Assembly: GCF_000970025.1 (NCBI RefSeq)
Contig: NZ_CP009528.1
Coordinates: 3,459,168-3,523,167, forward strand
Source: Methanosarcina barkeri MS
Lineage (GTDB): Archaea; Halobacteriota; Methanosarcinia; Methanosarcinales; Methanosarcinaceae
DNA: 64,000 nt
Reading direction: 5' to 3'
Below the pieces are notes generated by a model. It was not told the DNA's origin, did no database searches, and worked only from the letters and a program-made list of their open reading frames with translations. Positions 50,178-55,715 of this stretch are shown piece after piece (within the stretch, counting starts at the first letter, position 1; each line of letters opens with the position of its first letter). A program made the position numbers and the translations under genes.

Positions 50178-50304
50178 GAGTTTTTTTTGGAGGAAAGGGA
50201 CATTTTTAGATCACTTCATTAGCTCAAGAGGACTGAATTACTCGAGTTTCGGGGTGGAAGGAGACATTTTAGATCACTTCATTAGCTCAAGAGGAACGAA
50301 TTAT
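50178..50304. repeat. About 63-bp direct repeat, 2 copies, downstream of rps27ae
   Basis: Two segments, about 50178-50241 and 50244-50304, share an almost identical core (ACATTTTAGATCACTTCATT followed by AGCTCAAGAGGA). The stretch 50089-50525 has no gene; besides this repeat it carries a TATA-like run near 50467 ahead of the TPR gene. Confidence 0.8.
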
Positions 50305-50525: not shown

Positions 50526-53500
50526 ATGAATTTTCTTTATGCCAGAGCCTGGTACAGTAAAGCTCTTGCTCTTTTGAACTTGAAAAACCAGATCGGTGCA
50601 GAGAAAAATTTTGAGAAGGCACTTGAGGCTTTTGATGCCGTACTTAAGGTAAATCCTGAGAATAGCGTCGCCTGGCAGTACAGGGGAAATATACTTCGCT
50701 ATCTGGAACGTCCGGAAGAAGCGCTGCAGGCTTTTGAAAAGGCACTTGATTATGATCCTGAAAATATTCCTGCCCAATACTTCAAAGGGCTTACCTTCGG
50801 ATACCTGAACCTGCCAGAACAGGCGCTTGAAGCTTTTAATGGTGTACTTGGGAAAGATGAAAAGCACATCGGTGCCCTGTACTACAGCGGGCTTGCTTTA
50901 AAACAGCTCTCACGAGACAAAGAAGCACTGCAGGCTTTTACCAGAGCATCCGAGTTAAATCCAGAAAACCTGAAGATCTGGTACTATAGAGGAACAACCC
51001 TGTCCGTGCTTGGGAGAAATGAAGAAGCACTTGAGGCTTATGGAAAAACCCTGAAACTGGAACCTTCGCATTCAGGAGCATGGGAAGGCGAGGCAAAATC
51101 ATACCTTGCCCTGGGAAGAAGGAGAGAAGCTTTGAGAACCTGTGAAAAGGCTCTGGAACTCGAACCCGCATCTGCTGCGGCCTGGGAAACTCAGGGAAGA
51201 ATTCTCGAAAGCATAGGAAGAAAAGAGGAAGCACTTTCAGCTTTCGAAAAAAGCCTTATCCTTGAGCCAGGAAACGTAAAAAACAGGCTAGAAAAAGGCA
51301 GGCTTCTCGGACAGCTTGGCAGGCCCCAGAAAGCTCTTGACGTGTTTGAAAGTGTGCTTGAACTGGACAACTCTATTATAGAGGCAAAAGCCGGCAAAGG
51401 AAAAGCCCTGCTGGCACTTGGAAGATACCAGGAATCTCTTGATGCTTTCAGGAAAGTTCTTGAGACCGAGCCTTTAAGTTAGGAAGGATGGAGAGGAACA
51501 GGCAACTGCTTTCTAGCTATGCGGATGCCTCATGAAGCTTTGCAGGCTTATAAAAAAGCCCTTTCCTCTGGAACTGAAAATTGCGGCATTTTTTGCGGTC
51601 TTGGAAAGGTATATTATACGCTTGGGGATTATTCAAGAGCTTTTGAAAGCTTCGAAGAGGCTCTCAGACTTGATTCAGAAAACCTTTTTGCGTGGAACGG
51701 AAGGGGAAATGCACTCTATAAGCTTGGAAGATACAGTGAAGCTCTTGAGACCTATGAGACCCTCCTGGAACTTGACTATGAAAGCCTGCCTGCACGATAT
51801 AACCGTGGTGTCACTATTTCCAGACTTAGGCATCAAGATAAAGACTTTGATGAGATTCTTGAAAGTCAGCTTCAGACAGCTTTTAAAAAATATCTGGAAT
51901 TATCTGGAGGGCTTCCTGAAGGAGAAATTGGAGGTGAGAGCTGGAAGTACCGGGGTTTTGCTTTTGCCGAGTTGGGAGAGTATGGGGAAGCTCTTAAAGC
52001 TTTTGAAAAGGCCACAAAAAATGAATATGAAAGCTCTTTTCCTCGGGTTTGCAAAGGAATCACCCTTCTCTGCCTGAAAAATTATGAAAAAGCCCTGGAA
52101 ACGTTTGAAGATGCCGAAAAGGATCTTTATGCAGCCACAGAAGCAGAGAAAGCAATAAAAAATGGGAAGTACAAAGAACCTGGGAGTTTAAGCCCTGATG
52201 AACTAAATTTCAGGCTGAAAATTCTCTGGAATGCTAAAGGGCTTACTCTGGATGCCCTTGGAAGATATCAGGATGCTTTAACAGCTTTTGAGAGCGCCAA
52301 GAAACTTACTGAAGCTGAGAATATTGCATGTTCTGGAAAAAGCCTGGTTTTTGCGCACTGTGGAGAGTGGGAAAAAGCCCTGAAAGCGTTTGACAGAATC
52401 CTTACCCTCGACCCTCAAAACACCCAGGCTTCAGTCATGAAAGCTTTTGCCCTCATAAGGCTGCAAGAGTTTGAGAAAGCCATTTCAGTCCTTGAGAATC
52501 TGACAACTGACGAGATTAACTCGGATTTACCTTCGTGCCTGCTGGGCTTTGCCTGTTTCCGGCTGGGAGATTTTGAAAGAGCTCTTAAGGCATACAGGAA
52601 AGCAATCTATATAAATCCAAAAAATTCTCACGCAAAAAACGGGCTCGCGGAGCTTTACTTCAGGCTTGGGGACAGCAGGAGTGCATTAAAAGAACTCGAA
52701 GCTTCCATTGCAGAAGCCCCAGAGAATTCATTTTCAAGAAACCTTAAAGGTCGGGTAGAACTTGAAGAGCAGGCGTGTGAGGAAGCACTTGAGTCCTTCA
52801 GGCGAGCTCTTGCCCTGGATTCGGAAGACCAGAGACTGCTGCTCTGGGATGTGTACGCGAGATATGTGTACGCAGAAGCATCTTTTGAGGAAAATAGCGC
52901 ACGATTCAGGCATATGCTTCTTGCAGCTGCAGGAAAACTTGAAAAAGCAGCCATCTGGCAAAGGTCCGAAGATAATGAACTGAAAGCTTATGCCCTTTAT
53001 TTTCTGGGACTTTTTTATTGCCGAGTGCATTACTTCCGAAAAGCCGCCGATCGGCTTAATGAATGCCTGAGATTGAATCCCCCAGCCGAAGTTAAAAAGC
53101 CTGCAGACTTGCTCCTTAAAAATCTTCGTACAGGTCCTCTGAAACCTGCCTGGTGGAAATGGTGGCTTGATGCAAGAACAAAACGCCTGCTTAAAAAGCT
53201 CAGTTTCGGGTTAATTTTCCTTATTATATTTGGTCTTCTGCTGTCCCATCCGGCAGCGTCATCCCTTCCAATTATCTCCTGGCCCGCAGCTTATATAAAT
53301 CACCTTTTTTCTCTCACAGGGAATATTTCATGGCCGGTTTACGGTAGAGAATACATAGTCTTTATCCTGTTTTTGTTTTTCATCCTGCTCCTACCCGGTT
53401 TCAGGCAAGGCAAACCGAACGAAGAAGAGCTTGAACCTCTTACGCCTCCATACCCTGATCTCGATATTCCTGAATCCATACTTGAGGAGTTTGGTGAAAA

Positions 53501-53567
53501 GCTTGAGAAAAGCCTGTTCTCTCCCGAACCTATGGAAGAAAGCGTGAGAAAACTCGGAGATTTTTGA
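50526..53567 (+). CDS. Long TPR membrane protein read through an in-frame UAG
   Basis: One reading frame of 1014 codons is broken only by TAG at 51480-51482 (codon 319). Both halves are tetratricopeptide repeats in the same register, about 20 in all. At the break the repeat phase continues: Pro32 (ETEPLS), UAG at repeat position 1, then Trp4, Gly8, Ala20, Tyr24 and Ala27 in EGWRGTGNC and EALQAYKKAL. The second half has no good ribosome binding site of its own at ATG 51519. In Methanosarcina UAG can be read as pyrrolysine, so a full protein is plausible; a fresh nonsense mutation is the alternative. Two C-terminal membrane helices (about residues 890-960) anchor it, followed by an acidic tail. 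I choose ATG 50526 with GAGG four bases upstream; TTG 50493 is possible. TPR proteins act as scaffolds; the partner is unknown. Confidence 0.75.
51480..51482 (+). other. In-frame UAG codon, possible pyrrolysine
   Basis: The TAG falls between repeat units of the TPR gene, at a variable, solvent-exposed repeat position, and the frame is open for a further 695 codons. Confidence 0.6.
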
Positions 53568-54077: not shown

Positions 54078-55715
54078 TTGAAAAACACGTTCATCCTTGG
54101 AATCGAGGGCACTGCCTGGAACCTGAGTGCCGCAATCGTGACCGAAACCGAGATTATTGCCGAGGTCACAGAGACCTATAAACCCACAGCCGGGGGGATT
54201 CATCCCAGGGAAGCAGCCCAGCATCATGCAAAGTACGCAGCCAGCGTTATAAAAAGGCTTCTTGCAGAAGCAAAAGAAAAAGGAGTCAAGCCTTCAGATA
54301 TTGATGGGATAGCTTTTTCCCAGGGGCCTGGACTTGGGCCGTGCCTGAGGACGGTTGCAACGGCAGCCAGAATGCTTTCCATATCTCTTGGAGTTCCACT
54401 GATAGGGGTCAATCACTGTATCGCTCATATCGAAATTGGGATCTGGAGAACTCCTGCAACGGACCCTGTCGTTCTTTACGTAAGCGGAGCCAATTCTCAG
54501 GTTATTTCCTATATGGGAGGACGGTATAGAGTCTTTGGTGAAACCCTGGATATAGGGCTTGGAAATGCCCTTGATAAATTTGCTCGGGGAGCTAACCTGC
54601 CGCACCCCGGAGGGCCAAAGATTGAAGCATATGCAAAAAACGCAAAGAAATATATCCATCTCCCCTATGTGGTAAAAGGCATGGACCTTTCCTTTTCCGG
54701 ACTTTCCACGGCCGCCAGCGAAGCCCTAAAAAAAGCTCCTATTGAGGATGTCTGCTATTCTTATCAGGAAACAGCTTTTGCAATGGTTGTTGAGGTTGCA
54801 GAGCGAGCACTTGCTCACACCGGAAAAAAAGAAGTCTTGCTGGCAGGAGGAGTTGGGGCAAACACAAGACTCCGGGAAATGTTAAACGATATGTGCGAGG
54901 CCAGAGGCGCGAAGTTCTATGTGCCCGAAAAACGCTTCATGGGAGATAACGGGACAATGATCGCATATACCGGGCTTCTGATGTATAAGTCCGGAAACAC
55001 TCTTTCCCTTGAAGACTCTCGCGTAAACCCCAGTTACCGGACTGATGACGTGAAAGTGACCTGGATCCAGGAAGGAAAGATGAAAAGGGTTCCTGAAATT
55101 TCCCCCGGAACTTCTCTCAAGCTCGGGGAAATGCTGGATAACGGAGCCGAGGCTATTGTTTACCTGGAAGAAGGACCTGAAGGGAAGAAAATACTTGTTA
55201 AGGAAAGAGTCCCGAAAGCTTACAGGTATAAAGAAATTGATGAAAGGATCAGGGTCGAAAGAAACCGGACAGAAGCCCGCCTGATGTCTGAAGCCCGGAG
55301 ACATGGAGTTTCTACGCCGATTATCTATGATGTGGAAGATTTCAAGCTCAAGATGCAATATATTGATGGTGTCCCCATAAAATACCTGGTTACTCCTGAA
55401 CATTCAGAAAAAGTAGGAGAACTTGTAGGGAAACTCCACAGTGCGGGTATAGTACACGGAGACCTTACAACCTCAAATCTCCTGCTTGCAGGCGAGAGGC
55501 TTTATCTCCTTGACTTCGGGCTTGCATATTACGACAAAGGACTTGAGGCCAGAGGAGTAGACGTTCATGTACTATTCCAGACTTTTGAGAGTACACACCG
55601 TAACCATGAGGCCCTTATCGAAGCTTTCAAAAAAGGGTACCAGAGAACTTTTATAGATTCAGAGGATGTACTCAAGCGTGTTGAAGAGATAAAAAAGAGG
55701 GCTCGTTATGCATAA
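54078..55715 (+). CDS. kae1: Kae1-Bud32 fusion of the KEOPS complex
   Basis: Two KEOPS subunits in one 545-aa chain. The first part (about residues 1-325) is Kae1, the threonylcarbamoyl transferase that makes t6A37 in tRNAs; metal-binding His residues are in NHCIAHIEIG (about 111-120), with FSGLSTAASEAL and LAGGVGANTRLREML further on. The second part (about 335-545) is Bud32, a small kinase/ATPase with HGDLTTSNLLL (about 460) and LLDFGLAYYD (about 478). The fusion is common in methanogens. The start is TTG 54078, with GGAG 13 bases upstream. The 3' end overlaps the next gene by eight bases. Confidence 0.96.
   Translation: MKNTFILGIEGTAWNLSAAIVTETEIIAEVTETYKPTAGGIHPREAAQHHAKYAASVIKRLLAEAKEKGVKPSDIDGIAFSQGPGLGPCLRTVATAARMLSISLGVPLIGVNHCIAHIEIGIWRTPATDPVVLYVSGANSQVISYMGGRYRVFGETLDIGLGNALDKFARGANLPHPGGPKIEAYAKNAKKYIHLPYVVKGMDLSFSGLSTAASEALKKAPIEDVCYSYQETAFAMVVEVAERALAHTGKKEVLLAGGVGANTRLREMLNDMCEARGAKFYVPEKRFMGDNGTMIAYTGLLMYKSGNTLSLEDSRVNPSYRTDDVKVTWIQEGKMKRVPEISPGTSLKLGEMLDNGAEAIVYLEEGPEGKKILVKERVPKAYRYKEIDERIRVERNRTEARLMSEARRHGVSTPIIYDVEDFKLKMQYIDGVPIKYLVTPEHSEKVGELVGKLHSAGIVHGDLTTSNLLLAGERLYLLDFGLAYYDKGLEARGVDVHVLFQTFESTHRNHEALIEAFKKGYQRTFIDSEDVLKRVEEIKKRARYA

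Follow-up and report, generated by a model that had tools for sequence, protein, structure and literature searches.

In Methanosarcina, the methylamine methyltransferases MtmB, MtbB and MttB each carry a single in-frame TAG, whose position is conserved across species and at which pyrrolysine is held to be catalytic. A stimulatory structure 3' of the UAG (PYLIS) has been reported in some families only and is not essential. Among non-methyltransferase genes, a Methanosarcina transposase also has an in-frame TAG, and the tRNA-His guanylyltransferase (Thg1) of M. acetivorans, as summarized in PMC2933860 from Heinemann et al. (2009), contains one UAG read as pyrrolysine, which is non-essential and occurs in that species only, its relatives having a sense codon. 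According to the same source, full-length product reached an apparent 20–30% when an amber codon was introduced in M. acetivorans (PMC2933860). Here we describe a tetratricopeptide repeat (TPR) gene of Methanosarcina barkeri MS that is interrupted by one UAG, and compare it with these systems and with ordinary nonsense-mutated pseudogenes. When the literature was searched for pyrrolysine, Methanosarcina and tetratricopeptide, no paper on such a protein was found, as judged by title or abstract.

The window, a stretch of 64,000 nt at C2:3459168-3523167, contains at 50526-53567 one TPR gene of 1013 codons (TAG counted), which runs from ATG 50526 to the TGA at 53565-53567 and has the TAG at codon 319 as its sole internal stop (Table 1). 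The initial annotation had described two apparent genes lying in the same frame and separated by one TAG, and the coordinates proved exact, with no other stop before 53565; it had also placed the start of the second half at 51519, where an ATG is indeed present, but the open frame runs on directly from 51483. A short direct repeat, gatcacttcattagctcaagagga, was seen by eye in two copies in the leader of the gene (50200-50300).

Table 1. Positions of the parts of the interrupted TPR gene and of its downstream neighbour in the window
Feature	Position	Strand	Basis or remark
N-terminal 318 codons, about nine TPR units; product if UAG terminates	50526..51479	+	
In-frame TAG, codon 319, position 1 of TPR helix A	51480..51482	+	Orthologues Ser/Pro/Leu/Phe/Ala
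Remaining 694 codons and TGA in the same frame: more TPR units, two hydrophobic segments, C-terminal tail	51483..53567	+	
First in-frame ATG past the TAG; codes for an internal Met, no ribosome-binding site at normal spacing	51519..51521	+	
First hydrophobic, putative transmembrane segment, residues 888-914	53187..53267	+	Kyte-Doolittle scan
Second hydrophobic, putative transmembrane segment, residues 938-962	53337..53411	+	Kyte-Doolittle scan
Presumably Kae1-Bud32-like gene, conserved downstream neighbour	54078..55715	+	ORF, synteny

TPR matches far above the Pfam cut-offs (PF00515, PF07719 and others) were found on both sides of the TAG, and the 34-residue register continues across it, the TAG occupying repeat position 1 and Trp4, Gly8, Ala20, Tyr24 and Ala27 all standing in place, as had been claimed from the initial reading. 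The structure of residues 217-455 was modelled from an alignment of 15 orthologues, Lys standing in for the UAG residue; a continuous TPR superhelix was predicted with a mean pLDDT of 93.9, in which the UAG residue (103 of the modelled fragment) would be the first residue of a helix within an unbroken run of TPR helices.

An orthologue search covering 31 genomes of the genus, one genome per species, found the TPR gene in 24 relatives, and because each locus tested has the Kae1-Bud32-like gene as its immediate downstream neighbour, these orthologues are syntenic across Methanosarcina. Complete single frames of 1020-1051 codons are present in 21 of them; of the other three, the G010 gene runs into the end of a contig, and draft assemblies split the G012 and G020 genes into two pieces each, the breaks falling elsewhere than at the site equivalent to the TAG. 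The chance adjacency of two genes is thereby ruled out, and the view that this is one gene rather than two stands. At the site itself (24 relatives looked up, 23 of them aligned), a sense codon occurs in all 24 and TAG in none: Ser (TCA, TCG, TCT) or Pro (CCA, CCG, CCT), rarely Leu (CTA), Phe (TTC) or Ala (GCG), with TCA in G029 (89% identity) and CCG in G014 (86%), the two nearest relatives. Since all 24 relatives have a sense codon, the TAG is a derived nonsense substitution unique to the M. barkeri genome studied here; in this sequence comparison, it is one ancestral TPR gene that gained a stop in the M. barkeri lineage. A recent nonsense mutation, which the initial annotation had named as the main alternative to pyrrolysine, is thus what the orthologues point to.

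That the TAG is seen in one assembly only, and that TCG is one base from TAG, would also suit a sequencing error or a laboratory-passage mutation, with the wild species carrying TCG or a similar codon. We consider this improbable, because the 4.57-Mb assembly is near-complete in two contigs, the gene is without frameshift-type errors, and the TCA or CCG of the nearest relatives is two substitutions away from TAG. Gene fission, in which the second half would now be translated separately from ATG 51519, appears more improbable still. The in-frame ATG lies 12 codons past the stop and termination-reinitiation is possible, but this ATG is an ancestral, ordinary internal Met codon (G029 and G014 also have Met there), and a start at it would remove helix A of a TPR in the predicted fold. 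The purine stretch GGAGAGG is located ~22 nt upstream and codes for part of the conserved EGWRG, and therefore is not a normally spaced ribosome-binding site, in agreement with the earlier remark that the second half lacks one of its own.

As to the decoding machinery, pylS was found above its curated cut-off, together with a tRNA-Pyl with CTA anticodon (CUA) in the same locus, and there are two mtmB genes with one TAG each. The encoded MtmB1 is identical over 458 residues, the UAG position aside, to the solved monomethylamine methyltransferase MtmB1, whose structures are from M. barkeri (PMC2933860). The general premise that UAG can encode pyrrolysine in Methanosarcina therefore applies to this genome, and with pylS, tRNA-Pyl and TAG-bearing mtmB present, partial read-through of the UAG of the TPR gene as pyrrolysine is possible. 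RNA folding downstream of the UAG is ordinary, with a z-score of -0.70 and 46 of 200 shuffles as stable, by a measure of general folding rather than a PYLIS model; this z-score gives no sign of a special RNA element there.

Whether TAG is treated differently from other stops was examined by a coding-potential scan of 1.6 Mb, the proteins of those stretches being compared with two 400-kb stretches of G029; the scan is incomplete, because its coding-potential filter missed the TPR case itself. Long frames in this genome end with TAA in 405 cases, TGA in 287 and TAG in 22, and TAG is expected in about 32–39% of random nonsense mutations. The sampled stretches yielded few derived stops in genes that are otherwise intact: a derived TAG interrupts the TPR gene, the gene for a 120-residue protein (C2:363502) and one copy of an IS4-type transposase, a derived TAA occurs at C2:56267, and a derived TGA in one copy of an IS66-type transposase. 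An FrhB-like gene, which is intact in G029 and G014, has an in-frame TAA and TGA at C2:121704 and 121953 and is a pseudogene in the M. barkeri genome. An excess of TAG over TAA and TGA was considered as a sign of tolerance and set aside, since the handful of cases shows no clear excess over 32–39% and is too few for a test. Derived TAG, TAA and TGA interruptions are similarly rare, and no TAG-specific tolerance is demonstrated.

The TAG in the 120-residue hypothetical protein (C2:363310-363669, L058) is a second lineage-specific lone in-frame TAG, the gene being intact in G029, G014 and G017. Separately, an IS66-like transposase with an in-frame TAG common to its copies and to different species occurs at C2:344470, 1095741 and 2503661, as well as at more than ten sites in G014; it probably belongs to the kind of transposase previously described in Methanosarcina. 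In this transposase family and in mtmB the TAG is shared with relatives, unlike that of the TPR gene.

The TPR gene is dispensable within the genus, because a full-length orthologue is absent from G005 and G013 (each listed as 99% complete) and from G011 (92%), where only weak matches to TPR paralogues were found, and because G025 retains just a decayed copy bearing deletions and a TAA. In the 694 codons after the TAG, no further lesion was found, and lineage-specific changes there amount to 30.5 nonsynonymous (N) and 38.5 synonymous (S) in this genome versus 30 and 33 in G029 and 57 and 55 in G014, a normal N/S that is a weak test of pseudogene status if the mutation is young. As far as these changes indicate, the half after the TAG is undecayed and purifying selection is still visible, which fits either continued translation or a very young mutation and cannot separate the two. 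Upstream of the TAG, dS is 0.157 to G014 and 0.240 to G029, and downstream it is 0.295 and 0.238, respectively, so that the gene looks mosaic, G014-like before the TAG and G029-like after it. Judging from these values, it may be recombinant, with an exchange possible near the site, and polarisation of changes upstream of the TAG is therefore unsafe.

A plain nonsense mutation, in which the UAG simply terminates, no product but the 318-residue fragment reaches a meaningful level and the gene is a pseudogene in its early stage, would agree with the losses in G005, G013 and G011 and the decay in G025, with the share of TAG among random nonsense mutations, and with the derived TAA and TGA stops in other genes of this genome. 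Like ordinary nonsense-mutated pseudogenes, the gene has one derived stop and is dispensable. We regard this account as rather unlikely, though worth keeping in view, because the long downstream half is intact and still shows purifying selection, the interrupting codon is the only stop that the cell is equipped to decode, and UAG suppression is appreciable in Methanosarcina whose pyl system is intact (PMC2933860).

At the opposite extreme, pyrrolysine use might have been selected, the UAG gating the C-terminal part with its membrane segments by pyrrolysine supply, or pyrrolysine being needed at the site. In its favour, the gene is intact except for one TAG and selection persists downstream of it, and truncation would cost the protein both hydrophobic segments. 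The TPR gene shares with MtmB, MtbB and MttB a single in-frame TAG and the same organism and decoding machinery; it differs from them in that its UAG is unique to one genome, with no counterpart in the 24 relatives, at a variable surface position. Because the codon is not conserved, the site is variable, the RNA fold is ordinary, the different stops are similarly rare and the gene is lost or decayed elsewhere, there is no sign of selection for pyrrolysine. Selected use is hence very improbable and a function of pyrrolysine in this protein unlikely, and the suggestion of a purposeful pyrrolysine user was not upheld. Scarcely to be expected, too, is a pyrrolysine-dependent gate giving a 318-residue TPR fragment without pyrrolysine and a 1013-residue protein with membrane segments with it; if true, pyrrolysine supply would set the form of a non-metabolic protein.

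We consider it likely that a recent TAG mutation arose at a permissive site, most likely neutral or mildly harmful, and is probably partly suppressed by tRNA-Pyl, pyrrolysine having no special role. The ancestral gene would have been uninterrupted and its TPR product about 1013 residues long, with two hydrophobic segments in the C-terminal part. In the M. barkeri lineage, a codon of Ser or Pro type, specifying a surface residue where change is tolerated, then turned into TAG, most simply via TCG; the path is conjectural, while the stop itself is derived and lineage-specific. Given tRNA-Pyl and PylRS, ordinary amber suppression would probably let some ribosomes insert pyrrolysine at the UAG, so that both the 318-residue N-terminal product and some full-length protein arise, the latter with a TPR helix that begins with pyrrolysine. 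The mutation may have persisted because the position is permissive, suppression softens its effect and the gene is dispensable, and we infer its neutrality. By analogy with the suppression in M. acetivorans and the pyrrolysine of Thg1, the UAG should be partly suppressed, presumably whenever pyrrolysine is made; its decoding as pyrrolysine is a plausible prediction.

If read through, the TPR UAG would belong, on the pattern of its codons, to the kind represented by Thg1: in both, as far as Thg1 is described in the source cited above, the UAG occurs in one species of pyrrolysine-decoding Methanosarcina where relatives have a sense codon, having been derived in one lineage at a permissive site in the TPR gene. 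The two differ in the protein concerned and in that pyrrolysine has, by that same account, been physically observed in Thg1, whereas the TPR case is known from sequence. The transposase, whose family is present here and in G014, likewise shows TAG outside methyltransferase genes, but its TAG is common to copies and species. The TPR protein would therefore not be a new kind of user outside the methyltransferases, as had been proposed, since Thg1, as presented in PMC2933860, is a published precedent.

If there is no read-through, the TAG is an ordinary young nonsense mutation. Gene callers cut such UAG-interrupted genes in two, which calls for caution. If read-through is true, this gene would join Thg1 as a natural case in which neutral drift brought pyrrolysine into a protein, and would bear on the tolerance of the cell for an ambiguous stop codon and on the spread of the use of UAG as a sense codon.
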